Virus record (IMG/VR): IMGVR_UViG_3300032242_002545
Span: 1-53,896 of that record
Strand: one strand, 5' to 3'
From: a virus
DNA length: 53,896 nucleotides
Each line of letters starts with the position of its first letter. Positions within the stretch are counted from its first letter, which is position 1. Of this stretch, positions 25,641 through 53,896 are shown piece by piece. Below the pieces are notes generated by a model, which saw only the letters and a list, made by a program, of their open reading frames with translations, did no database searches and was not told where the DNA came from. The translations under genes and the position numbers were made by a program.

Positions 25641-26648
25641 TTATTTTCTTTTAAGATGTTTTATAAGATAATCTTTATTAACCCTTTTAATGTGTTTGTA
25701 AAGTTGTAATTCATTTTTTCTAAAATCTGTTAGATTATCATACTTTTGTACAACAGAATTTATATACTCATTGGAATAGCCTAATTTATTTAATTTTTTA
25801 TCTTTCATATGATTAGTAGCTATATCTATAATCTTTAGTTTATTAAGTTTTTTATAAATTGCCAATTCTTTTTCTTTAAAATCTTTAAAACTATCATAGG
25901 ATTTAGCCACCTCAATTAATTCTTCTCTATTATATAGTTTTTTATAAATGTTATTAATTACACATTCTTCAACATCTTCTTTAGTTATTTTATTTTTGGT
26001 GTGATTATTTATTATTTTTAATTTATCAATTAGTTGTTTTTTAATATCGGCCTCGTAATTTCTACTATTATTTATTTCATGAATATAAATTATTTTAATA
26101 CCTTTTTTATCGGCTAATTTTTTTTTTATTTTATCGTTTTTATTGTTTACGTGCCAAGCAATACCTTGAAATTCAAAACCTAAATTAATATCTTCATAGA
26201 ATATGTCTATTTCATATGGTTTAAGAATTTTACGGTTGTTATACGTAGATGGTACTTTAATAATTTTGTCTGTTATTTCTCTAAGAATAAGTTGTGGTAT
26301 ACTAAATTTAATAACTGTCATATGAGAACATATGTTGGATAAAAAACCCTTTAATCTAGCAGCTTGGTAGGCTGGACCATCATTCTGAATAAAATCAATT
26401 TTTGTTTTATATTTACTAGCTATTTTTTTTAACACATCATAAGTCAGACATCTACCACCTTTTGCTAGTTTACCCTTAACCCCAAGATTATTTCTATTAT
26501 CTAACAATTCTTTTGATTTAATCAATCCTAACCTATATCCTTTATTATCTATTTGTGATTTAGTCTTACACATAATTGTAGCTATTTCATTGTTGAATTT
26601 ATTTGGGTATAAATTGGTTAATATTTTTTCTTCTTGTTTAGTCCACAT
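25641..26648 (-). CDS. Free-standing homing endonuclease-like protein (PD-(D/E)XK/Vsr-type)
   Basis: 335 residues on the opposite strand to its neighbours, a common sign of an inserted homing gene. It opens with a Myb/SANT-like DNA-binding unit (MWTKQEEKILTNLYPNKFNN, then KSQIDNKGYRLGL). Near residues 145-200 is a nuclease-like core: KPYEIDIFYEDINLGFEFQG with acids spaced as in PD-(D/E)XK or Vsr-like enzymes, then AWHVNNKNDKIKKK and KGIKIIYIHE. The C-terminus has repeated helical units (SYDSFKDFKEKELAIYKKL and YDNLTDFRKNELQLYKHIK) of a nuclease-associated DNA-binding kind. Very A+T-rich, unlike PhoH. Its own TATTTATT motif lies 18 bases upstream. Confidence 0.75.
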   Translation of the reverse strand: MWTKQEEKILTNLYPNKFNNEIATIMCKTKSQIDNKGYRLGLIKSKELLDNRNNLGVKGKLAKGGRCLTYDVLKKIASKYKTKIDFIQNDGPAYQAARLKGFLSNICSHMTVIKFSIPQLILREITDKIIKVPSTYNNRKILKPYEIDIFYEDINLGFEFQGIAWHVNNKNDKIKKKLADKKGIKIIYIHEINNSRNYEADIKKQLIDKLKIINNHTKNKITKEDVEECVINNIYKKLYNREELIEVAKSYDSFKDFKEKELAIYKKLNKLKIIDIATNHMKDKKLNKLGYSNEYINSVVQKYDNLTDFRKNELQLYKHIKRVNKDYLIKHLKRK

Positions 26649-36984: not shown

Positions 36985-38925
36985 TTATCTCAATTCTGCT
37001 ACGTTAAATGTAGGTACACCATCAACACGCACGTGACCGTAGAATCTGTTGTTAACAGACTTCTTAGCGTAACGAGTCATGATACCCTTAACTGGAGCAA
37101 AGTTAAATGGATTGTACATTGTTGGAGTCAATTGCAATGGCACGTATGGTGCGTAGATGTAACCTGTATCCAATAATGACTTACCTTTGTGACCTACAAC
37201 AACTGAGTAAGATGGTGAGTAAGGGTCACGGTATACTTGATAACGACCACCCAAAGTACCAATTCTTTCGATACCCATGTTATATTGGTCTTGCTCTGGG
37301 TTAGCATCACTTACGTGGAAGTATTCAAGGTCATCGAATACAGCTGATATCTCAGAAGATACAACTACGAAGTTAGCACCACCACGAAGAGTTGACTTGT
37401 GGATTTGAGCAGACAACTGGTTAATTCTTGTGATAAGAGTTTGGTTCCAGTCTTTTTGTGTGTAAGGTGCAGCAGCTGAAGAAGCTTTTCTCCAACCATT
37501 GTAATCCCAACGCAATTGCCATGCAGCCAATTTACGCAAATCTCTAAGGATTTCACGGTCAATTTCCGCAGCAACTTGTTCTGACAACATAGCTGTCAAT
37601 TCAGCTTCAGCATCGATGTTGTGGAATGCACTAACGTCTTGTGCCAACTCTGGAGACCAAGTAGCTCTTAATTTTCTTTCTTCAACAGCAACTACAACTT
37701 CAGCAAGGTTGAAAGATACTTCACCAAGTTCAGTTTCAAGTTCCAATGAAGCGTATTCAGCCCATGCGAAGATAAGGTTGCTAGTTACAGCACTAACTGA
37801 GCTTGCAAGGCTAGAACTTGTAACACCTGTAGTACCTACATAACCATCATAAGTTGATGTACCAGCTTTAGCTACACCAGATGCAGTTGTACCAACTGGG
37901 TGACGGAAGTCAAGTTCAATATATATAAGACCTTGGTCAGTTACCAAGTTACCAGTTGTATTTTGAACGATACCTTTACCATATTGTTGAGTAACTACAC
38001 GGAAAGGAATTTCTTTGTTTTGAGCGATAATTGTGTTACCATCCGCATCAAGATAAGAAGATGTACCGTTAACAACGTGCAATGAAGCCAAGAATGATTC
38101 TGTATCCATGTTGTTACCATCTGGACCAGTCAATACTTCACGACCACCATTACCAGTACCAGAACCGTTAGGGGCACCACCAGTGAAACCAGAAAGACCA
38201 ACAATCGCGTGTCTTACGCTACCGTCACTTGACAAAGGCAAGATAGTTGCACCGTAAGCGGCAGACAATGAACCATCTGTGTTAAATGTAAATGTAGTGT
38301 AATTTACTTGTGTTTTGATAGTAAGGGTACCCTTAGAGTTATCAAACATACCGTCATTGTAGAATATATCATACAAGTTCTTAGCTTGGAATCTAGTTAT
38401 AGGGTAAGAGTTACCAGCAGCTGCAACAGGAAGAGCAGCAGCAGTAGCTGTACCATTGTGTTCACCGTTCAAACCAGTTTGAGCAGAGAAGCTAGGTCCA
38501 GTTTCACCAGCCCAACGGTCACTAGAAGCAGTTGTTGCATATGGGTCACCATAGTTAGCAGCTGCGTTAGAATTAGCACCGTTATAACGAGCTGAAGTTT
38601 GAGGTACGAAATAGAACAATTTACCGATAGGCATGTTCATCGCTTGTACTGATACGATATCATTTGCAAGTAATTTAGAGAATACACGTCTTACGATAGG
38701 GAATACAACTGTTTCGAATGAACCAGATGAAGTTGCCGATGTAGTTTCAGTCAACAAAGCAGAAGCTTCGTTTTCATACAATTGAGCAATGTTTTCTTTT
38801 ACGTGGCCTTTAAGACCATCAAGGAAACCTAGGGCTTCCCATTTTGCTTGGGTTTCTTGGCGAATCGCTTTCATGTGATTCAAACCGATGTTACCCACTT
38901 GTCCAGATGTTAATAAATGTGACAT
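36985..38925 (-). CDS. Major capsid protein (T4 gp23-like)
   Basis: 646 residues, longer than T4 gp23 (521). Family features: an N-terminal helical arm; FETVVFPIVRRVFSKLLAND plus VQAMNMPIGKLFYFVP (about 68-110), matching the gp23 VRRV and PxGxI/LF segments; and ATWSPELAQDVSAFHNIDAE plus LTAMLSEQVAAEIDREILRD (about 433-472), the well-conserved spine. A large Gly/Ser/Thr-rich insertion between them (about 120-400) is likely a surface domain. T4-type capsid proteins lose an N-terminal piece to the prohead protease, which is encoded upstream in the same operon. It builds the hexamers of the head shell. The stop is 26 bases from the bidirectional terminator. Confidence 0.95.
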   Translation of the reverse strand: MSHLLTSGQVGNIGLNHMKAIRQETQAKWEALGFLDGLKGHVKENIAQLYENEASALLTETTSATSSGSFETVVFPIVRRVFSKLLANDIVSVQAMNMPIGKLFYFVPQTSARYNGANSNAAANYGDPYATTASSDRWAGETGPSFSAQTGLNGEHNGTATAAALPVAAAGNSYPITRFQAKNLYDIFYNDGMFDNSKGTLTIKTQVNYTTFTFNTDGSLSAAYGATILPLSSDGSVRHAIVGLSGFTGGAPNGSGTGNGGREVLTGPDGNNMDTESFLASLHVVNGTSSYLDADGNTIIAQNKEIPFRVVTQQYGKGIVQNTTGNLVTDQGLIYIELDFRHPVGTTASGVAKAGTSTYDGYVGTTGVTSSSLASSVSAVTSNLIFAWAEYASLELETELGEVSFNLAEVVVAVEERKLRATWSPELAQDVSAFHNIDAEAELTAMLSEQVAAEIDREILRDLRKLAAWQLRWDYNGWRKASSAAAPYTQKDWNQTLITRINQLSAQIHKSTLRGGANFVVVSSEISAVFDDLEYFHVSDANPEQDQYNMGIERIGTLGGRYQVYRDPYSPSYSVVVGHKGKSLLDTGYIYAPYVPLQLTPTMYNPFNFAPVKGIMTRYAKKSVNNRFYGHVRVDGVPTFNVAELR

Positions 38926-38953
38926 AGTTTTTTTTTATTTTTTTTTGTTAGGG

Positions 38954-40251: not shown

Positions 40252-40974
40252 TTAGTCTAGCAAAAATTTATCCAATTTGGTTACCAAGTTTTCAGTCAAA
40301 ATTGGCTTAACCACCTCTACGCTTTCTGTATAAGGCCTAGCTTCTTCAACACTCTTGAATATCCAAGCATCTGGTGTTGATGGTGCCGTAACAACGTCCC
40401 AACAAATAATCTCGAAATCGTCTTGTACTATTTGTTCCCCGTTACGACCTTCTTTCAATGAACCAACACCTCTTGAAGAAACACCAATCTTAATTCTGTT
40501 TCTTAATAGGTTTGCAACTTCATCACCTTTCGTTGATACGATACCGTAGTTTATAAAACCTGGCGACATTAGGATTTCCATCTTACCCATAAGCGTTTTG
40601 CCTTCCCACCATGTTTCAATGATATTGTGTGATATTCTATCACCAGCAATGATACTAGATTCTGGGTGGTCCAATTCACCTACAGCTGCACGTTCCTTTA
40701 TTAGTTTTTGATATAGTCTATCTTGTTTAACCAATACATGTTCTGGATATATTCTTCCATTACGGTTAAGAACACCATACTTCTGTAGAATAACATAAAC
40801 CACAAGAGGTTCAGCTATTACCAATTTTTTGCTATCAAGCTTTTGTATTTCGTTAATGAAGGCTTGGTTTCTTGGTTCATCAGGGCTGATGAATCCAGCA
40901 TCGTGTTCAATCAAATAACCAAAACCGCTGTCACCGCGTTTAAGTACCTTTATATCTTTATAGTTTATATCCAT
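40252..40974 (-). CDS. Prohead protease (gp21-like serine protease)
   Basis: 240 residues. The catalytic His lies in AAVGELDHPESS (His103) and the Ser in IKIGVSSRGVGSL (Ser166 or Ser167), the order and context of the U9/gp21 herpesvirus-type protease fold. NGRIYPEHVL (72-81) is the conserved N-terminal piece and DDFEIICWDVVTAPSTPDA is the C-terminal conserved strand. It cuts the scaffold and capsid proteins during head maturation. The two neighbours downstream are its expected substrates. A TATTTATA motif lies 16 bases upstream of the ATG. Confidence 0.95.
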   Translation of the reverse strand: MDINYKDIKVLKRGDSGFGYLIEHDAGFISPDEPRNQAFINEIQKLDSKKLVIAEPLVVYVILQKYGVLNRNGRIYPEHVLVKQDRLYQKLIKERAAVGELDHPESSIIAGDRISHNIIETWWEGKTLMGKMEILMSPGFINYGIVSTKGDEVANLLRNRIKIGVSSRGVGSLKEGRNGEQIVQDDFEIICWDVVTAPSTPDAWIFKSVEEARPYTESVEVVKPILTENLVTKLDKFLLD

Positions 40975-42924: not shown

Positions 42925-44973
42925 CTATTGGTCACCCAACATTTTATCGATGTCATTAATCATGTCATCAACTTCCGCATTAATTTTTACATTTTTATCT
43001 AGGATTCTTGTCTTGGGTTCCTTAAGTTCTTTTGTTGGTTGTATTGATTCTATCAGCCTATTGACGAAGACGTTTTTATATTTTTGCGTCCTATCATCAA
43101 GCTTCTTAGCCAAGACTGCCTTCTCTTCTTTTAGAATCTTACTAACCTTTCTGAACGATTCTGTTACGTTTTCTGGTGCCGCTTCTCCTTCTGCTCCAGT
43201 TTCGGTAGCAGTTTCTTCTGCTCCAGCTTCAGCACCAGCTTCGGTAGCCGCTTCTGATTCACCTTCTTCTCCGAAGTTCAAGTCTTCACCTCCAACGCCG
43301 CCACCCCCGAATGAACCGCCTCCTCCAGCAGGGCCTCCAGCAGGACCTCCTTCTTCGTTTCCAGCACCTTCTCCAGCACCGCCGCCGCCTTTAAGAGCTA
43401 ATTTAAAGTCACCATAAACACGGTCAACTATATCGAACATACCTGTATGCTTAATAACATTTGCTGAATTTGCCAATTCAGCAGCTGCCGCTTTTTCCAT
43501 ACGTTGTTCAAGTAAGTCTTGTTTGATATCATCATCTGACATACCAAGTATATCTCTCTTAGCACGTGTCATTGACATAGCACCAAATCCGTTACCAGAA
43601 TCAGATACAGCGTCTTTATATAGGGTAACCTTGGTCTGCAAGTGTTCAACCTTAAGCATTTCGGCTTGTGTTGATGGGTTATTAAGCGTAAGGGTAAAGT
43701 TATCGAAGTCTTCTTCAAATCCAAGAATATACAAGTGAATCATAGCTATCTTGTTAAGCTCTTGAAGCATTGCTTGTTGTATACGATTTATGGTTCTTGA
43801 GAAACGAATATCTTGTAATGCAAGGTTTTTGCCTTCACCAGTTGTATCATCAAAACCCAAGAATGGCTTAGGTACGCGTAATGCTGTAAACAAATTGTGT
43901 TGCAAGTATTGTATATCCGCAATTTGGTCTAGGTTCGAGGCACCTGGCAACGTATCAATTGGATTTGGTGCGCTTTCATCACGAACTGGGATGAAGAAGT
44001 CTTGGTCATTTGATAACTGATTATATCTCAAGTCTATTTGACCTGTATTAGGGTCGGTAATAGGCATACGTTTAAACCTATCAGCGATTTGGTTTACATA
44101 TGCTTCAACGTCACCGTCATCAATGTTACCAACATATATCTTGTATACACGTCTTTCTGGAGCACGGGTAACACGGTAAACAAGCATCGAGTCTTCAGAA
44201 AGAATAAGTTGCTTCCAAATACGTCTTGCTTTTTCAAGAACGCTGGTACCATAAGGTAGTCTTCTATCATCTCCCAACAAACGGAAGTGAGCAATTTGCC
44301 ATGAGTTAAATTCAACGTCACGACCTCTCCAGTAGAACTTTATCTTATCACCAGTACTTACTTGACCATTAACCGTATCACGACCAGTAATCATATCAAA
44401 TAGACCGCTTTCTCTGCGCTCCATTTCGTAGTTAGGCATTTGCTTGGCACTTAACACACCATGCTTATCATCAATGTTTAAATATACGAAATTATCACCG
44501 TATTTGCAGGTATTTCTGGTCCACATCGGAAGCGATACGTGAATATCCAAACGGTTAAAGAATAAGTCTTCAAGAATACCCTTAACACGCTTGCTATCTG
44601 AGTATATATTCATTACCCTACCCTTATCATTTATGGTGGTTGATTCTTCCATCATGATATCCAAAGCAGCTGCAATGGTTGGATAGAACTCCATAGCCTC
44701 GAAGTCAGAATATGAACCTATACGTGTTGTTTCATAGTTGATAGATTGTTGAAACAATCCGCTCTCAACCTTTTTCCACATTTGACCCAAGTACTTAACT
44801 TGTTGAGCCTGTAGCTTAGCTCTTTCGAAATCAGCTTTATTATCTGTCTTTAATAATACATCACCACCTATGTTATATCTTTGTGGTTGTTTTGCTGGTT
44901 CTTTTAGTCTTACCGCATCTGGACTAATTATTTGTCCTAGTCGTTGAAAGACCGTTAGTTTTTTTTCTGCCAT
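42925..44973 (-). CDS. Portal protein (gp20-like)
   Basis: 682 residues; T4 gp20 has 524. Forms the dodecameric ring through which DNA enters. Typical portal segments: YETTRIGSYSDFEAMEFYPT and IAAALDIMMEESTT near residue 75-110, KFYWRGRDVEFNSWQIAHFR (about 215-235), LLGDDRRLPYGTSVLEKARR and then IWKQLILSEDSMLVYRVTRA plus PERRVYKIYVGN, the well-conserved stem-to-wing region. PFLGFDDTTGEGKNLALQDI is also conserved. An extra C-terminal tail has Gly-rich repeats (GGPAGGPAGGGGSFGGGG, about 540-575) and acidic Ala/Glu repeats. That part is probably flexible and specific to this phage group. No TATTTATA motif is found in the 50-base gap before it. Confidence 0.93.
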   Translation of the reverse strand: MAEKKLTVFQRLGQIISPDAVRLKEPAKQPQRYNIGGDVLLKTDNKADFERAKLQAQQVKYLGQMWKKVESGLFQQSINYETTRIGSYSDFEAMEFYPTIAAALDIMMEESTTINDKGRVMNIYSDSKRVKGILEDLFFNRLDIHVSLPMWTRNTCKYGDNFVYLNIDDKHGVLSAKQMPNYEMERRESGLFDMITGRDTVNGQVSTGDKIKFYWRGRDVEFNSWQIAHFRLLGDDRRLPYGTSVLEKARRIWKQLILSEDSMLVYRVTRAPERRVYKIYVGNIDDGDVEAYVNQIADRFKRMPITDPNTGQIDLRYNQLSNDQDFFIPVRDESAPNPIDTLPGASNLDQIADIQYLQHNLFTALRVPKPFLGFDDTTGEGKNLALQDIRFSRTINRIQQAMLQELNKIAMIHLYILGFEEDFDNFTLTLNNPSTQAEMLKVEHLQTKVTLYKDAVSDSGNGFGAMSMTRAKRDILGMSDDDIKQDLLEQRMEKAAAAELANSANVIKHTGMFDIVDRVYGDFKLALKGGGGAGEGAGNEEGGPAGGPAGGGGSFGGGGVGGEDLNFGEEGESEAATEAGAEAGAEETATETGAEGEAAPENVTESFRKVSKILKEEKAVLAKKLDDRTQKYKNVFVNRLIESIQPTKELKEPKTRILDKNVKINAEVDDMINDIDKMLGDQ

Positions 44974-45023: not shown

Positions 45024-46811
45024 CTATTTTGTTCCGCTAAATAACCACAAGAATTGTCCTGTTGGGTCTTGCATATTTTTAGCCACCGTAGGGTTGAATT
45101 TTGGTTTTGGCATCGCTGCCTTATTTCTGTTATTTTTACTTACAAATCCACTTCCTTTTTCAAGTTCAATCTGTTCTAGTGTCTTGGTATTTCCTATCAC
45201 CCAACTATTTAAGATTGCTTTGTTTTGCTTTTCAAGACGCTCAAGATTTTTGAATGAGTGTTCGAGAACCCATAGACACATAGCCAGTGACATCAACAAG
45301 TCATCATGGTATCCATCCATGTGGTCAGGTCTACCATTCTTGTAAACGAATGTTTTCATTTCCATAGCAAGTCTCATCGAACGAATCTTAACCGCATTGG
45401 TTCTTATCTTGTATTCAAGATTTGAAACCATAGGAAGCCTTACGTTTGTTGCATGGAAACCTGGCGTTTTGCTGTTCGTATCGTATCTTGATAGTTCTCT
45501 TTGTCTAGCGGATAGTATCTTACCATTGGTTGTTTCGTAGTGTAGTCTCTTGTAGTTAAATTCCATGAGCTTTAATACGGTAGAAACACCCATACCACCA
45601 GTTACATCCACTACGGTATATGCCTTGTATTGTTCTCCGTATTCCTCGACCAATTGAGCCAATAAGTCTGGTTGTATCTTTCCTTTGTACTCCAATACTT
45701 GTTCCATGGTCGTGAAATCAATGATTACAATGGTTGATGAATCCTCTCCGTCACCCCTTGAAACGTCTACGCCCATGATATACTGATGACCCTCTTGTGG
45801 AAGTTCCCATATCCAAGTATCCTTATCGGCACCAAGCATTATTATTGGTTCCTTTACGTTGTTTTTTATCTGTAGGTCTATGAATTGTTCATCAATAACG
45901 TTACCACCCGAACCAATAAACGACACATCAAGCTCTTGTGCAATCATCTTAGCATCGTTGTTCATACCTTCACACATCTCTTCATACCAACTAGATGTTG
46001 GTTTCCAACCATCTGATATTCTCTTTTCGTAAGATGCAAATGTAAACTCGGTTTCTAGTTCAATAACATCATCTTTTACCCAACGCAAATCCTTATTATA
46101 TCTCAAGTCTTCATACCATTTCATTTCAATGATATTAAAACCGTTCTTTTTTTGTTTTGCAAGGTCGTATGTTTTGTAATAGAGTTCGTCCATACCACGT
46201 GGAGTAGATATAAGCATCGCTCTACCACCCGTACCCAACGCTGTTAATGCAGCACCAAACACTTCGGCACCGTTATCGATATATGCTGCTTCATCCATAA
46301 CAAGATACGTAGGTGTAAAACCTCTTAACGCATCCTTAGAGGTTGCAACGGCCTTAACACGACTACCATTAGGTAGCTTTATTTCTTGTTTAGAATCTGT
46401 AAGGAAAATGGTTTTCTTTTCATTTTTAGGGTTACCGTAGTAATCTGGTCCCCAAATCCATCTGGGTAGCTGGTCTAGGAAGTCTTTAATCTTGCTTAAG
46501 AATTCAAAAGCCAATGCTTGTTTGTTGGCGATAATCAATACGTTCTCTGGGTTATCTGAATCTGCTAATCCAACCTTTACGGCCATGTAAGCTGCTGTTG
46601 TAGTTGATACACCAGCCTGTCTTGGTTTGGTAATTAGATTAAACCTATTATTCTCGTAAGCGTATATGATTTCTTTTTGTTTTGGAAATAACTTGAAAGG
46701 AACAAAGCCCTCTTGGGTCTTGTCGAACGTTTCAAAGAATGTCTCGATTGCGTATACTGGACTTGCCAAACACTTTGCGTATTCTTTAAGTATTTCACCT
46801 CTTGTTAGCAT
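45024..46811 (-). CDS. terL: Terminase large subunit (gp17-like)
   Basis: 595 residues, near T4 gp17 length (610). Packages DNA into the head with an ATPase and cuts concatemers with a nuclease. Adenine motif FPKQKE (42-47); Walker A TKPRQAGVST (61-70) in the variant RQAGVST form of T4-like terminases; Walker B YLVMDEA (169-175); coupling motif LISTPRG (200-206). Nuclease acids: MGVDVSRGDGED (Asp349), VVDVTGGMG (Asp402) and GYHDDLLMSLAM near 515. All key residues are present. It follows its own TATTTATA motif nine bases upstream. Confidence 0.97.
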   Translation of the reverse strand: MLTRGEILKEYAKCLASPVYAIETFFETFDKTQEGFVPFKLFPKQKEIIYAYENNRFNLITKPRQAGVSTTTAAYMAVKVGLADSDNPENVLIIANKQALAFEFLSKIKDFLDQLPRWIWGPDYYGNPKNEKKTIFLTDSKQEIKLPNGSRVKAVATSKDALRGFTPTYLVMDEAAYIDNGAEVFGAALTALGTGGRAMLISTPRGMDELYYKTYDLAKQKKNGFNIIEMKWYEDLRYNKDLRWVKDDVIELETEFTFASYEKRISDGWKPTSSWYEEMCEGMNNDAKMIAQELDVSFIGSGGNVIDEQFIDLQIKNNVKEPIIMLGADKDTWIWELPQEGHQYIMGVDVSRGDGEDSSTIVIIDFTTMEQVLEYKGKIQPDLLAQLVEEYGEQYKAYTVVDVTGGMGVSTVLKLMEFNYKRLHYETTNGKILSARQRELSRYDTNSKTPGFHATNVRLPMVSNLEYKIRTNAVKIRSMRLAMEMKTFVYKNGRPDHMDGYHDDLLMSLAMCLWVLEHSFKNLERLEKQNKAILNSWVIGNTKTLEQIELEKGSGFVSKNNRNKAAMPKPKFNPTVAKNMQDPTGQFLWLFSGTK

Positions 46812-48178: not shown

Positions 48179-49146
48179 TTTATGTCTTTTACTTTTATTA
48201 CTTTAATTACGTTTTCTGTTACTTGTTGTGCTTGTTGCTGTGGTTGTGCTTGTTGCTTGGCCAAATCCTTCAAGTTATTAATCAATTGCGGTAATTGATT
48301 TCTTTTTACACCAACCAATTCAGCAAATGCTGCAATAACTTCTCTTTGAGCAACTGGAGTCTTAATAGTACCAATGATGTTATTTATTCTGCTATTTGAT
48401 TTGATAACATCCATTAGCTTTTGCGCCTTTGCGTTCATCTCTTCATCAGACTCAACACCAGTTGGCATAACTTCTTTAAGGCTTCTGTGCTTAGAACCAA
48501 ATAGTCTTTCAGCCACGTGTTTTTTGAACTGAGGAAGATTCATATAGCTCTCATCTTCGGTCATATTAGCTTTAGCCAATTCTTCTATTGATTTAAACTT
48601 TCTAACCTTTCCGTTTTTCTTGTTTATGATATAGTGCTTAAATTCGCTTAGATTAGAAGCCTTTTCTGGTATTGGTTGAATGTCTTGACCCATAGGTGCC
48701 GCCATAGCTTCTTTCATTGGTCTTGCTATGGTTTCTTCGAAGTGGTCCACTGGGTGAATAATATTCTCGCCAGATTCATTCAAGTCATCAAAACAATATA
48801 CACCCATAACAACTTCTCTGTTTGGAGTTATACCTCTAACCATTTGATACTTCTTATTAGCTATTTCAAATGGCTTAGATACTTCACCAGTTTCACCATC
48901 AACAACATTTGATAAGTACTTTATAGTTTCTTTATCTTGAGGCTTGATTACTGCTTCTGGTTGTTCAGTCATAGTTGGAAAACCGCCACTAGTACCGCCA
49001 CCTTTTGCGGTAACGTTAAGCTTAACTTTTTTTTGTTGTTGTAGTTTTTTTAACGCATCTAAGTCACCAGTTGGCATCTTTTCTATGTCTTTAAGACCAA
49101 GATTTAGACTTAGTGAATTATCCTCGTTTATGTTTTTATTCTTCAT
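48175..49146 (-). CDS. Structural-module protein (323 aa), function unknown
   Basis: No family identified. Charged and mixed; the first 50 residues are disordered (KKLQQQKKVKLNVTAKGGGT), then short beta segments (YQMVRGITPNREVVMGVYCF). A Gln/Ala-rich run appears near the end (AKQQAQPQQQAQQVTENVIK). AFAELVGVKRNQLPQLINNL near 265-290 could form a small helical domain. Overlaps both neighbours by 4-11 bases. Position suggests a virion-associated protein. Confidence 0.65.
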   Translation of the reverse strand: MKNKNINEDNSLSLNLGLKDIEKMPTGDLDALKKLQQQKKVKLNVTAKGGGTSGGFPTMTEQPEAVIKPQDKETIKYLSNVVDGETGEVSKPFEIANKKYQMVRGITPNREVVMGVYCFDDLNESGENIIHPVDHFEETIARPMKEAMAAPMGQDIQPIPEKASNLSEFKHYIINKKNGKVRKFKSIEELAKANMTEDESYMNLPQFKKHVAERLFGSKHRSLKEVMPTGVESDEEMNAKAQKLMDVIKSNSRINNIIGTIKTPVAQREVIAAFAELVGVKRNQLPQLINNLKDLAKQQAQPQQQAQQVTENVIKVIKVKDIK

Positions 49147-49543
49147 GATATTGTTTATTATAGATTAGTGTTAGGTCTTTTTCATAAAGCTTGTCTGAAA
49201 CGATTTGTAACGAGTCTCCAAATCTAAAACATAGTCTTTTATCTGGATACGCATCATATGCGTTTATGTTCTCCCAAGCCAAGGCTATTACACCATCAAC
49301 GGCATCCCAAACAGCGAAGGTATCGCTATTTTGAACCACATCAAGCTTTAGTGATGACTCCAAACGACCAACTTTTTTTATAAATTCGTCATGAGGAGCT
49401 TCTGGTCGGCCTGAAGCTGGGAACGTATCCCATTCATTACCGTCAATATTTTTGGTCGTATCAGAAAAGATAAACTCATAAAGGTAATTACCTTCATAGT
49501 TTTTTCCAATCATATTAACGTATACCAAAAATAACTTATCCAT
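49136..49543 (-). CDS. Hypothetical protein (135 aa) of the structural module
   Basis: Compact mixed fold: LFLVYVNMIGKNYEGNYLYE and FIFSDTTKNIDG at the start, then SLKLDVVQNSDTFAVWDAVD, IALAWENINAYDAYPDKRLC, and a final QIVSDKLYEKDLTLIYN. No named family. Overlaps the next gene by 11 bases and the frameshifted structural gene by one base. Likely a small structural or assembly partner. Confidence 0.66.
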   Translation of the reverse strand: MDKLFLVYVNMIGKNYEGNYLYEFIFSDTTKNIDGNEWDTFPASGRPEAPHDEFIKKVGRLESSLKLDVVQNSDTFAVWDAVDGVIALAWENINAYDAYPDKRLCFRFGDSLQIVSDKLYEKDLTLIYNKQYHEE

Positions 49544-51585
49544 TACTTACTAGCTTTTGGGTTTGGTTGAACCTTAGGTGTTGGTAAAAATGGCTTATCC
49601 TTTCTACTTGGCGTTGCTGGTGCTTCCTTTGGCTTAGTTGTTGGCTTTACAACTGGTGCGGTTTCGGTATCTCTAAATGTTTCTCTAAGCATATTCTTAA
49701 TCTTGTTTTTATTTTCAAATATACTATTATTTTCCGAATTATTCAAGTCCTCTACTATTTTTGATACTGGTTTTCTTGACCACATTCTGCATGACCAATA
49801 CTTAGGTGTTGTTCTATCCTTAGCTTGAGAACACTTATGTCTCGCTCTGAATGATTTTCTTCTTTCTGGATTATCTCTCTTGATTTCCATGTTAGGGTCA
49901 CCAAAGTTAACCTTCACAACTTTACCAGCACTATTTTTAACATAAACCTTGAACTTCTTAACGTCACCTTTAGTAGGTTTACCTAGCTTTACTTCTCTTC
50001 CATGATATTCAGCTTCGCTCATAGATATGTTTTCTACACTACCGTATTCATCGCTATAACCACCTTGTGTTTCGCCATCGTAAACATCCAATTCCGTTTC
50101 TAATAAATGATATACGTGTTCAATCATTTCTCTAATCTTAGAAATATTATTGATTGCCCATCCATGACCGTTAACTAACAATTCATCTATTTTTTGGTGG
50201 TCCATTTCTAGTATTCTACCACTAGCGTGGTTAATCACTTTAAGGTCTCTCCAAAACATATAGTTGTTTGTTTCGTTCTTTAGATTTACGTTTTCATCTA
50301 TCATGTCTTCCATAAAATGGTAAACCTCTTCCATTGATTCAGCGGCTCTTGCGATGTGGTCCAAAGCCCAAGCATTACCATCTGATAGTACCGTATCAAC
50401 GTGGTTAAAGCTCATATGAAGAATTTGACTTGCATCTTCATGTATTCCTTTCATGTTTGACCAAAACATATAGGTTTGATTCTCATTCATTTGATTTGTT
50501 TCTTTTAAATTATGTAACTCATTATTATTAGATTCATTTGCGGATTTTTTACCCCATGAATCACCTTTTCCTTTTGTCTTACAAGCACTAGGTGTTGGTC
50601 TACATGAAGGATAAGACCTGTGTTCACCTTCTTTTCTACCACAAGGCTTGCATTTACCATCTCTACATGTATTGCAGTCTACCCAGCCTTTGCTACCTTC
50701 ACCACCTCTTCTGGTAAACCAACCATGAAGACCGCTTTCTTTTTCTTTTGAAAAGTCAGTCTTTTTAGCTGTTTCTTCTACTGATTCATCATGTTTTTTT
50801 CTACCTTGGCAGTGTGCTTTTTGACTGAAGCCTTTTGGGTTATTGCAGTCAATACTTCTCTTGTATTTTTCTGACCACTTTTCATCCAATTGTTCGTCAG
50901 TCATGCTCTTATAGTCACCTAGTTCTTTTAGGTCCTCTTCTTTAAGACCTTTCCAAATCTTACCTTTTCTACACTTAACAACAGCACCAGACGCATAAGC
51001 AGATGGCCAAACATCATATTTTCTTTTTGCTATGTTTGTGCATCTGTCTTCATCAAGTATATCGTTTGAACCCTCTTGAAACATATTATTTTTCTTAGGG
51101 TCGACAAATAAATTATCCATGTTTTCGTAAATATACAATTCATCCAAGCCTTCTTCATCAGATGGTTCAGATTCTGGTGCTGGTTCTTTACTAGGTGTTT
51201 CACCGCTTTCTGGGGCAACATCTTCATCACCTTGACCAACTTTCTTAACTTTGCTTATGATATCTTTTTGGTCTTCAGCATCCATTTCACCAGTATGCGT
51301 TGCTGACAATAAAGAGTTAATTGCGAACTTTTCTAGCTCGAAGTCTGGCTGTCCTTGTTCGTCAGTATATTTTCTTAGGGATTGTCCTAATTTACCTGTA
51401 AGTTGTTCTATGAATTTTTTTGGGTCTGATTCTTCATCAGCCTCTACACCAGCATCAAATGGCTCGTCATCAAACGGCTTATCATTAGCTGGCGGTGTTT
51501 TAGCTTCTGGCTCAGGCATTGGAGCAGCCTCTGGAGCAGCCGCTGGAGTTGGAGCAGCAGGTTCTGGTGAACCTGCAACTTTCAA
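49543..51585 (-). CDS. Structural protein, -1 frame part of a probable frameshifted gene
   Basis: 680 codons from a TTG at 51585, but this is not a credible start: no ATG, no promoter motif, and the frame is open back to the run of ten A at 51612-51621 at the end of ORF 51606-52454. A -1 shift there joins the two into about 970 residues. Features: Pro/Ala/Glu linker at 1-50; CTNIAKRKYDVWPSAYASGA and VVKCRKGK (about 182-210); Cys-rich WVDCNTCRDGKCKPCGRK (about 302-320), a zinc-knuckle-like region; two similar units at about 372-435 and 443-505 starting YMFWSNMKGIHED and YMFWRDLKVINHA; and RARHKCSQAKDRTTPKYWSC with RMWSRK. These Cys-rich motifs recur in structural proteins of large T4-like phages. 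Confidence 0.8.
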   Translation of the reverse strand: MKVAGSPEPAAPTPAAAPEAAPMPEPEAKTPPANDKPFDDEPFDAGVEADEESDPKKFIEQLTGKLGQSLRKYTDEQGQPDFELEKFAINSLLSATHTGEMDAEDQKDIISKVKKVGQGDEDVAPESGETPSKEPAPESEPSDEEGLDELYIYENMDNLFVDPKKNNMFQEGSNDILDEDRCTNIAKRKYDVWPSAYASGAVVKCRKGKIWKGLKEEDLKELGDYKSMTDEQLDEKWSEKYKRSIDCNNPKGFSQKAHCQGRKKHDESVEETAKKTDFSKEKESGLHGWFTRRGGEGSKGWVDCNTCRDGKCKPCGRKEGEHRSYPSCRPTPSACKTKGKGDSWGKKSANESNNNELHNLKETNQMNENQTYMFWSNMKGIHEDASQILHMSFNHVDTVLSDGNAWALDHIARAAESMEEVYHFMEDMIDENVNLKNETNNYMFWRDLKVINHASGRILEMDHQKIDELLVNGHGWAINNISKIREMIEHVYHLLETELDVYDGETQGGYSDEYGSVENISMSEAEYHGREVKLGKPTKGDVKKFKVYVKNSAGKVVKVNFGDPNMEIKRDNPERRKSFRARHKCSQAKDRTTPKYWSCRMWSRKPVSKIVEDLNNSENNSIFENKNKIKNMLRETFRDTETAPVVKPTTKPKEAPATPSRKDKPFLPTPKVQPNPKASK
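51557..51576 (-). other. Hairpin downstream of the putative frameshift site
   Basis: GCAGGTTC/GAACCTGC, a perfect eight-bp stem with a four-base loop on the minus-strand transcript. It lies 35 bases after the A run, further than the usual 5-9 bases of frameshift stimulators, so its role is uncertain. Confidence 0.45.
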
Positions 51586-51605
51586 CTTATATTTTGTGTC
51601 TTCAA

Positions 51606-52454
51606 TTAGACTTTTTTTTTTGAGCTTTCGTTTACGCTATATTCTTTTCCGTCTACGCTAAACTTAGACTTACCAGCCTCTTTAGCTTTTGCTAATTCTC
51701 CAGAAAATTTGTTACCCTCACCTATTTCTTTTTCCATCTTTGAAGGTTCAATCATTTCATCGATAGCTTTTTCGTATTCAGTCATGTGTGGCTCTTCTTC
51801 CATGTATCCGCATTCAGCCATCCAACCTTCTTCGGTCATAGACTCATCCATACGCATTTTCTTCTTAACGTCCATAACGCAAGATTCGTATTTTTCTGAA
51901 TTTCTACCAACACTAGCTGTGCAAATAGCCCATGGGTTTTTTGCTTTACCTTCTTCCATCCAGTTTTCTTCCATCCAAGTCTCTTCCATTGGTCTGTTGT
52001 TCTCAAGATTGCCATGACCACTAAAGCCATTACCTTTCATTTCAGAGAATCCACCAGCCATTGGCATAGATTCGTTCAATAGGTTATCGTTTAAGAATAC
52101 ATTGATTTCGCCTTCGAAGTCATAGGCTTCAGCAAGACTTCTGAACTTAAGATTTAAGTGCTTCAAAGCATTTGCATATGAAGGATAAACTTCAGATTTT
52201 TTGTTTTGTAGACCTCCGATATACTTGAAGTCTTCAGCAACTAAATTAGCTGTCTTATCAGCTTTTTTGATGTACCATTCGTGGTTTTCTCTTATGATTG
52301 CATAAGCTTTTCCATCTGGACCCATCTTGGTTGTTTCAACAACTATCTTAGATTTATTTTCATTGATAGATTGTATTCCCATCAATTCTTTCATACGTTC
52401 GGTAATCTGGTTACCTTTAAGCCCTAGTGGGTTGATTAATACTTGTTTTTTCAT
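51606..52454 (-). CDS. Structural protein, 0-frame part of a probable frameshifted gene
   Basis: 282 residues, start MKKQVLINPLGLKGNQITER with a TATTTATA motif 14 bases upstream. A beta-containing first domain (YAIIRENHEWYIKKADKT, about 50-68; FKYIGGLQNKKSEVYPSYAN) is followed by Met/Glu/Trp-rich repeats (EETWMEENWMEEG) and by NPWAICTASVGRNSEKYESC (about 173-192), a Cys-containing motif I associate with large-phage structural proteins. The frame ends in Ser-Ser-Lys-Lys-Lys-Val-stop at the A run. The sequence before the stop (FSVDGKEYSVNES) continues naturally into the -1 frame (SLIEDTKYKLKVAGS), so the protein is likely longer than it looks. Confidence 0.82.
   Translation of the reverse strand: MKKQVLINPLGLKGNQITERMKELMGIQSINENKSKIVVETTKMGPDGKAYAIIRENHEWYIKKADKTANLVAEDFKYIGGLQNKKSEVYPSYANALKHLNLKFRSLAEAYDFEGEINVFLNDNLLNESMPMAGGFSEMKGNGFSGHGNLENNRPMEETWMEENWMEEGKAKNPWAICTASVGRNSEKYESCVMDVKKKMRMDESMTEEGWMAECGYMEEEPHMTEYEKAIDEMIEPSKMEKEIGEGNKFSGELAKAKEAGKSKFSVDGKEYSVNESSKKKV
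51612..51621 (-). other. Probable -1 frameshift or slippage site (A10)
   Basis: Ten consecutive A on the minus-strand transcript (zero frame TCA AAA AAA AAA GTC TAA). A -1 slip gives AAA AAA AAA AGT CTA and enters the long 680-codon frame. A homopolymer sequencing error is the rival explanation. Confidence 0.7.
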
Positions 52455-52494: not shown

Positions 52495-52740
52495 TTAATA
52501 CATGTTTGTCGAACCTTGGAATACATTTTGATTATCACCCAATAAGTAACAACCTGTACCTCCACTTATGCTTCTTACCCAAATCTTTATATTTGTACAG
52601 CCAGCTACTTGTACTAGTGTTCCATTAAGAACCATCGTACAACCACTAGCTCCACCATATACTTCGTTATAAGTATGTGCGGTGAAGTTTGGTGCATCGG
52701 CAGAAACTATTATGCTATGTATGTCGGTTATATTTGCCAT
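52495..52740 (-). CDS. Small beta-rich structural protein (81 aa)
   Basis: MANITDIHSIIVSADAPNFT starts a compact, uncharged, beta-rich chain ending CYLLGDNQNVFQGSTNMY. The pattern ASGCTMVLNGTLVQVAGCTN followed by ISGGTGCYLLGDN repeats a Gly-Cys turn, suggesting a small jelly-roll or decoration-type fold. It is alone between two promoter motifs. Capsid decoration or a tail accessory is the guess; no family assigned. Confidence 0.68.
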   Translation of the reverse strand: MANITDIHSIIVSADAPNFTAHTYNEVYGGASGCTMVLNGTLVQVAGCTNIKIWVRSISGGTGCYLLGDNQNVFQGSTNMY

Positions 52741-52803: not shown

Positions 52804-53896
52804 TTATTGTTTTGTGTAAAGAATCTTTCGACCCACTCCATTGATTACTTCGATATAAAACTTGTATGGTAATAACTCGTGTTCTTGTATTCCTAATAGA
52901 TTATAGTATTTCACATCTGTATCATTGGTTATTGATATGATATCAGAATAAGCATACTGGCCGTCTATATCCACTTGCTTTAACCTGTAGTAGTTGCTTC
53001 CTTGTATCGGCAAAGCATCTATAAAAGAATACTCTGTTTGACTTGTTGTAGTACCCATTCCCTTAACGATTCCTATGCTTGACCAATTTAACGCAGAATC
53101 GGCCCTTTCCACCTCAAATCTATCGTTATCTATCTCTGATGCTGTTACCCAGTATAAAACGTTCTTATTGCCGTATTTTTGCCCGTAAAATGCCGTTAGC
53201 TTAACTGGTAGTTCTGTGGCTATCGATAACGTTCCAGAACTTGAATAAGCAACGCAAGGCGAATTTGTTGAAGCTATTCTATAACGATAACCGTTTATTC
53301 CATGATTTGCTGGATAAATCTTCAAGGTATCCCCACGAGTTGAATAGGGCGAAGCTATCGTTAAGCTAGACCAACTTGACCCTCCATTGGTTGAAACCTG
53401 CCAAACAAATGGATAATTTGCGTGAGCTATAAACCAATAAGTTGTGCCAACATGTACCGCAGTAACATTTGATGGATTTATACTAATCGTTGGCATAGAA
53501 TTTATAACCACCGAAAAGGTATCGGTCTTTGACCATACGCTTGTACAGCCAGCTACCACCGAAACCGTTCTTGCGTAGTATGTTCCAGACGATGAAATGG
53601 TTGTTGATACGCTTTTGCTGGTATCTCCAGAATTTAATTCGATATACGAGTTAGATGGAAGGCTTATAACGCTTGACGTACAAGCTGGGGTCGTATATGT
53701 TGGTGTAGGCATCGTTGGTACCAAACATCCGACCAACTTTATATCATCAATACGAACAGTATTGGTTGACGAGGTTGAGGCATATCTAAAACGAATTCTA
53801 AGATTTGCTGTTGATGGAATTGAACCAGACGCTGTTAAATACTGCCAAACGCTTGCAGTACCAGTACCAGTACTTGGTGACATCGTAAGAGATGTC
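52804..53896 (-). CDS. Surface protein with Bacteroidetes type IX secretion-like C-terminus (5' end beyond window)
   Basis: The frame is open to the right edge (at least 363 codons), so the N-terminus lies outside; the ATG at 53883 is internal by context. Order seen: a beta domain (LRIRFRYASTSSTNTVRIDD), Ig/PKD-like repeats with paired Cys (WQVSTNGGSSWSSLTI, YRYRIASTNSPCVAYSS), then ELPVKLTAFYGQKYGNKNVL, WVTASEIDNDRFEVERADSA and YSFIDALPIQGSNYYRLKQV plus DIDGQYAYSDI. This is the membrane-proximal module typical of type IX-secreted proteins of Flavobacteriia. The end, YYNLLGIQEHELLPYKFYIE and KILYTKQ, resembles the type A sorting domain. In a virion gene order it may be a host-derived tail part or a display protein. 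Confidence 0.85.
   Translation of the reverse strand, partial: TSLTMSPSTGTGTASVWQYLTASGSIPSTANLRIRFRYASTSSTNTVRIDDIKLVGCLVPTMPTPTYTTPACTSSVISLPSNSYIELNSGDTSKSVSTTISSSGTYYARTVSVVAGCTSVWSKTDTFSVVINSMPTISINPSNVTAVHVGTTYWFIAHANYPFVWQVSTNGGSSWSSLTIASPYSTRGDTLKIYPANHGINGYRYRIASTNSPCVAYSSSGTLSIATELPVKLTAFYGQKYGNKNVLYWVTASEIDNDRFEVERADSALNWSSIGIVKGMGTTTSQTEYSFIDALPIQGSNYYRLKQVDIDGQYAYSDIISITNDTDVKYYNLLGIQEHELLPYKFYIEVINGVGRKILYTKQ

Follow-up and report, generated by a model that had tools for sequence, protein, structure and literature searches.

Bacterial RNA polymerases slip efficiently at nine A or T, a property that is productive in the dnaX gene of Thermus thermophilus (PMC5009743), and slippage at ten A in dnaX is found in other bacteria as well (PMC3711429); under a published criterion for slippage, the frame relation may differ among orthologues (PMC3711429). 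The ribosome of E. coli slides robustly on eleven A and little on nine or ten (PMC4363877). Short and long forms of one protein are also known from phages, namely gpG/gpGT of lambda, 10A/10B of T3 and T7, and the capsid protein of Listeria phage PSA, and these known cases are ribosomal (PMC5009743). A single poly-A frameshift, for which slippage has been suggested, is described in a methyltransferase gene of the T4-like Campylobacter phage CPt10 (PMC2853527). Descriptions of frameshifting in phages usually involve the ribosome and a nearby stimulator, whereas the large natural data set presented here points to transcriptional slippage.

The window, which is the whole stretch of DNA analysed here, is a virus record from IMG/VR, 53,896 bases in length, and carries a T4-like head module in its right part, on the minus strand. 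Upstream of the terminase in this module lies a locus composed of two frames, A and B, with the following features:

51606-52454, minus strand: ORF A, the putative short isoform (282 aa, ending KKKV*), with the N-terminal domain that would be common to both isoforms
51612-51621, minus strand: A10 run, the candidate slip site, in the frame TCA AAA AAA AAA GTC TAA (T10 on the plus strand)
51606-51608, minus strand: TAA stop codon of ORF A (unshifted frame), 3-6 nt past the A10 run
49543-51636, minus strand: frame B, the predicted post-shift reading, 688 residues beyond KKK, without a proper start of its own
51547-51587, minus strand: RNA hairpin, conserved and covarying, that overlaps the KYKLK codons of B, with an inner 8-bp stem at 51557-51576
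45024-46811, minus strand: TerL, downstream of A-B
42925-44973, minus strand: portal, T4-like head module
40252-40974, minus strand: prohead protease, T4-like head module
36985-38925, minus strand: major capsid protein, T4-like head module

The 3' end of ORF A reads ...AGC TCA AAA AAA AAA GTC TAA, with the stop two codons past the run, and a -1 shift would produce ...SSKKK followed by SLIEDTKYKLKVAGS..., that is, 281 + 688 = 969 residues. The initial annotation had described this ORF as ending at ten A and had estimated a combined product of about 970 residues; the run does lie there on the coding strand and the computed length agrees. A neighbourhood comparison gave matches to the small gene at 52495-52740 in 94 of 101 loci and to the gene at 49136-49543 in 87 of 101, and TerL was located downstream of A-B in 28 loci, mostly those for which the fetched stretch was long enough. 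The protein encoded at 52804-53883 (minus strand) has a C-terminus that resembles the T9SS sorting tails of Bacteroidota, and no Pfam or NCBIfam match to it was obtained at E 0.1. Elsewhere in the window, a second A10 tract is found at 26118-26127 (minus strand) within an uninterrupted ORF of unknown family (25641-26648), some transcripts of which may be frameshifted too. Two A9 runs separated by one base (38928-38946, minus strand) form an A-rich leader abutting the start codon of the major capsid protein (38925), and a fucosyltransferase-like gene of glycosyltransferase family 10 is present in this phage at 22252-23073 on the plus strand (Pfam PF00852, E 6e-7).

Homologous loci were first collected through two protein searches of viral contigs and then enlarged by further searches to 104 distinct loci, all of them on environmental contigs, while no homologue of A was found in the bacterial and archaeal genome collection or in isolate phages. 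These loci share descent and do not represent 104 independent events, a kinship that the tree and the 85% identity filter address only partly. A and B are split in 102 of the 104, with nine to twelve A just before the stop of A (A9 in 6 loci, A10 in 92, A11 in 3 and A12 in 1) and with the -1 frame open into B, in most cases over 250-930 codons. The run is never shorter than nine A in any of the 104 loci, and the stop of the unshifted frame falls no more than 27 nt past it in all 102 split loci. The nearest relative, another metagenome record that is 96% identical in A, likewise has A10. Moreover, the transition is kept in about 70 loci below 85% identity, and on a tree of 100 sequences it is conserved beyond chance. 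The sequence that leads from the N-terminal domain to the run shows poor conservation and is difficult to align; the run is, therefore, conserved in its own right. On the tree, the length of the run must have changed eight times or more. As to the frame relation, 102 loci have B at -1, one A11 clade shows the fused state (0), and no locus has +1. Judged from these loci, the A10 arrangement is neither a product of chance nor an assembly error, and run length is conserved, while a change of one base flips the frame relation. The -1 join within the ten A that the initial annotation had proposed is thus strongly supported, as the same arrangement recurs throughout the split loci, and the comparison with homologues that it had named as a check revealed, in addition, the two parts as one ORF in the A11 clade. 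Since gene callers would cut such genes in two, about 100 phage genomes probably need reannotation at this locus.

The fused state comprises two loci, represented by three contigs from three metagenomes, in which A11 is read through in a single frame, ...RILKKKRLTEYKK...STGLF...:

L143:92-1738; L144 from 122; L145 from 4001: fused A-B ORF of about 550 codons

This clade is derived and nested among A10 lineages with 100/100 support. An A10 copy of its message would end in KKKD*, exactly as the short form does in relatives such as L142. The pair of states, split at A10 and fused at A11, constitutes a natural experiment that helps to separate slippage from a ribosomal mechanism.

We propose, with a probability of roughly two in three, that A-B is one gene with two isoforms generated through slippage of RNA polymerase at the A10 tract. 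Comparison of the loci establishes that the tract, the adjacent stop in the unshifted frame and an open frame at -1 are conserved throughout a diverse family of T4-like environmental phages; that the polymerase slips on the tract is what we infer. Slippage would generate transcripts with 10, 11 or other numbers of A, of which those with ten A would encode the short protein A (282 aa, ...KKKV*) and those with one additional A the full-length A-B (969 aa). The A11 clade would follow the converse scheme, faithful transcripts giving A-B and slipped transcripts the short A. Both isoforms would contain the N-terminal domain, to which the long form would add a helical core and mosaic Cys/Lys-rich domains as a C-terminal extension, a logic analogous to that of phage capsid or tail proteins with short and long forms.

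A homopolymer of about nine or more A/T, as expected for slippage, stands at the frame transition throughout the family (A9-A12 in the 102 split loci and A11 in the two fused ones). A ribosome slipping at A_AAA_AAA needs seven A. Slippage is therefore favoured by the persistent minimum of nine A, together with the avoidance of such runs elsewhere and the lack of nearby structure. This avoidance was assessed in 438 other genes of the same loci as the ratio of observed to expected runs relative to synonymous shuffles, which was 0.99 for A7, 0.87 for A8, 0.33 for A9 and 0.22 for A10, with none of the 14.8 runs expected for A11 or longer. Runs of nine or more A are scarce in each codon phase, whereas A7-A8 are not avoided, and other Lys-Lys-Lys sites are written AAA AAA AAA in only 8 of 116 cases, though AAA makes up 80% of Lys codons. 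The fused A11 clade argues in the same direction, as its A10 transcript would yield the KKKD* ending of its relatives, and so does the weakness of ribosome sliding at A9-A10 (PMC4363877). On the other hand, the scarcity of A9 and longer runs could equally stem from DNA replication errors, triple consecutive AAA codons are avoided in E. coli as well (PMC4363877), the fused state comes from a single clade, and the E. coli RNA polymerase slips more on T than on A runs (PMC6260861), and another polymerase may serve these phages. Stops in the third frame were also considered as a sign of slippage; they occur within 28 nt in 100% of cases against 87% by chance, and are thus a weak indicator. On balance, the shift may well occur in transcription rather than on the ribosome.

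The perfect eight-bp hairpin that had been noticed 35 bases downstream of the run is indeed present at 51557-51576 as GCAGGTTC-ACCA-GAACCTGC (minus strand), and it forms the tip of the longer conserved stem. Folding was evaluated in 48 loci below 85% identity against synonymous shuffles that preserve protein and codons; the folding energy 20-90 nt past the run lies 2.5 standard deviations under the shuffles, and windows from 60 nt on are near zero. The stem is built from differing sequences, e.g., GCTGGTTCT/AGAACCAGC, TTGGGTAG/CTACCCAA and CCACTGCT/AGCAGTGG, and pair counts in 24 sequences showed that both sides had changed at 10 of 15 pairs; the covariation score was 0.223, as against 0.120 in shuffles. 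A covariance model detected the hairpin at the site in about 40 of the 48 loci and gave just weak, chance-level matches elsewhere. Rfam had no match at the hairpin site. RNAalifold returned no structure from a MAFFT alignment of the hairpin, probably as a result of variation in arm length, while direct counting of the named structure supported it. Closer to the run, no conserved structure was found 0-40 nt downstream (mean z of -0.59, -0.59 and -0.06 in windows of 0-24, 0-30 and 5-40 nt) or in the 60 nt upstream (mean z about -0.6). A small hairpin directly past the run, of the GTCTAA...TTAGAC type, was discarded because it did not stand out clearly from synonymous shuffles (mean z -0.59, median about 0).

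The conserved hairpin tracks the KYKLK codons of B, which lie from 20 to more than 100 nt from the run, and where this motif is 80-450 nt away, windows anchored on the motif have a mean z of -2.33 versus -0.76 for those anchored on the run. It is thus too far from the run, and too variable in its distance, to be a likely frameshift stimulator, and its position fits no recoding stimulator that we found described in the literature. Collided ribosomes were rejected as the cause of its spacing because of the same wide range of distances. The fused A11 clade lacks the hairpin (z about 0), as do a few split loci (L128, L136 and L164), so that a tie of the hairpin to recoding is a hint at most. As a guess, it might shield or insulate the message behind the stop codon of A. 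A broader and rather doubtful scenario would be that, in this T4-like lineage, programmed polymerase slippage at an A10 of fixed length sets the ratio of two late proteins, and that a dedicated hairpin has evolved, linked to the codons of the extension and not to the slip site, which assists the recoded message, for instance through protection or insulation of the mRNA behind the stop of the short ORF.

Programmed -1 ribosomal frameshifting, in which the mRNA would be uniform and the ribosome, moving one base backwards on an A_AAA_AAA of the run, would continue into B, is a less likely but still plausible explanation that accounts for part of the evidence. AAA AAA AAA is in frame in nearly all runs, so that the slippery heptamer A_AAA_AAA is present, the heptamers A_AAA_AAG and A_AAA_AAA are mildly avoided elsewhere (0.63 and 0.69), a conserved hairpin exists downstream, and the direction of the shift, always -1 in the 102 split loci, is by a published rule a ribosomal mark (PMC3711429). 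However, runs of at least nine A are always kept though seven suffice, and AAA within the run is never swapped for AAG. The 3' structure expected at 5-9 nt (3-15 at most, PMC5009743) is missing, which lowers the case for a ribosomal site and does not remove it, since such structures are common but not obligatory; the hairpin that does exist starts 20-44 nt off, and in one entire group beyond 80 nt, yet stays fixed to KYKLK. Moreover, a -1 shift in the A11 clade could not yield the same short protein.

Phase variation, i.e., the gain or loss of A in the tract during replication, toggling B between individual phages, would be consistent with the mutability of long A runs, the differences in run length among relatives (A9-A12) and the one fused clade; yet fused frames should then be common, whereas 102 of the 104 loci are split, the differences in length mostly preserve the -1 relation and the nearest relative keeps A10, all of which make this reading highly improbable. 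Least probable of all are a homopolymer error in assembly or sequencing, a decayed gene, or separate A and B genes with a start of B's own. Homopolymers are error-prone, and the window offers in frame B a TTG at 51583-51585, its earliest start and located inside the KYKLK codons, as well as an ATG 30 codons past the run. Nevertheless, the same split occurs in loci from many metagenomes, which refutes error for the family as a whole, and the conserved codons of B begin right at the run. In 17 of 28 relatives, B lacks ATG over at least its first 100 codons, and in six of the 28 it lacks ATG, GTG and TTG alike over at least its first 83; this start-free region covers the KYKLK motif as well as the strongly conserved core KPFDDEPFDAGVEADE...LEKFAINSLLSATHT. 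Relatives devoid of start codons over conserved residues thus rule out the ATG of the window as the normal start of B. The initial annotation was right that B lacks a believable start, although the TTG is not the sole candidate. Homologues with the two parts as separate, properly started genes, which it had regarded as contrary evidence, are not borne out by these start-free relatives, and reads with nine or eleven A, which it had taken as a sign of error, cannot serve in that way, since natural genomes carry both A9 and A11. Further frame shifts within B were also considered; however, the loci in which B seemed to be split (L013, L030, L031 and L047) give the impression of separate genes and not of new slip sites.

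As for the proteins, the predicted model of A (pLDDT 69.6) contains a small beta-sheet domain at residues about 37-120, with pLDDT mostly of 80-92, followed by a low-confidence linker. It has no significant match in the PDB (best E 0.68), and its significant viral fold matches are solely uncharacterised proteins, including the two closest. B consists of a Pro/Ala linker, a core that probably comprises three helices according to a low-confidence model, and mosaic Cys/Lys-rich modules, some of which are found in other genes of other phages. For A and for the core of B, Pfam, PHROGs, NCBIfam and the PDB yielded no informative match, while accessory modules of B show local matches to PHROGs of unknown function. 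These modules are all that annotated isolates share with the locus, as in Flavobacterium phage immuto (NC_055915.1 111063-111654, L224), where B modules occur in two overlapping short hypothetical genes and no homologue of A was found. B modules also recur in a second ORF after B in L002, L003, L005 and L006, which makes the extension a mosaic that is in some cases split or duplicated. A large insertion in B at L012:5684-8485, between WPSAYA and SGAVV (C...TGN), is intein-like by eye, with no Pfam intein family match at E 0.01. Only the location beside terminase, portal, protease and capsid genes suggests a head, packaging or internal role. The two products had initially been called structural; they do adjoin head-module genes, and in view of the lack of an informative family match this label stays unproven.

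If the proposed mechanism is true, transcriptional slippage would be a fixed, inherited expression device in phages. Among known phage systems, lambda gpG/gpGT, T3/T7 10A/10B and the PSA capsid protein resemble A-B in being late genes in which a change of frame close to the 3' end of the first ORF yields a C-terminally extended form, whereas no sequence relation to them was found and the extension of A-B is long (about 260-930 codons) and mosaic. CPt10 differs in that it has a single frameshifted gene with a suggested rescue and no site conserved in a family. E. coli dnaX shares with A-B a -1 shift at in-frame AAA codons and a downstream hairpin; however, it uses A_AAA_AAG, an upstream Shine-Dalgarno-like sequence and a stem-loop at 5-9 nt, in place of which A-B has at least nine A and a hairpin 20 to more than 100 nt away. 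Thermus thermophilus dnaX is alike in its A9-A10 tract, in the stop of the other frame right after it and in its short and long proteins with a common N-terminus, as A-B is predicted to have. It differs from A-B in that the latter is a phage gene, carries a covarying hairpin further downstream and encodes the short form in the plain frame in most lineages, whereas the A11 clade displays the same arrangement as Thermus dnaX, the plain frame leading to the long form.
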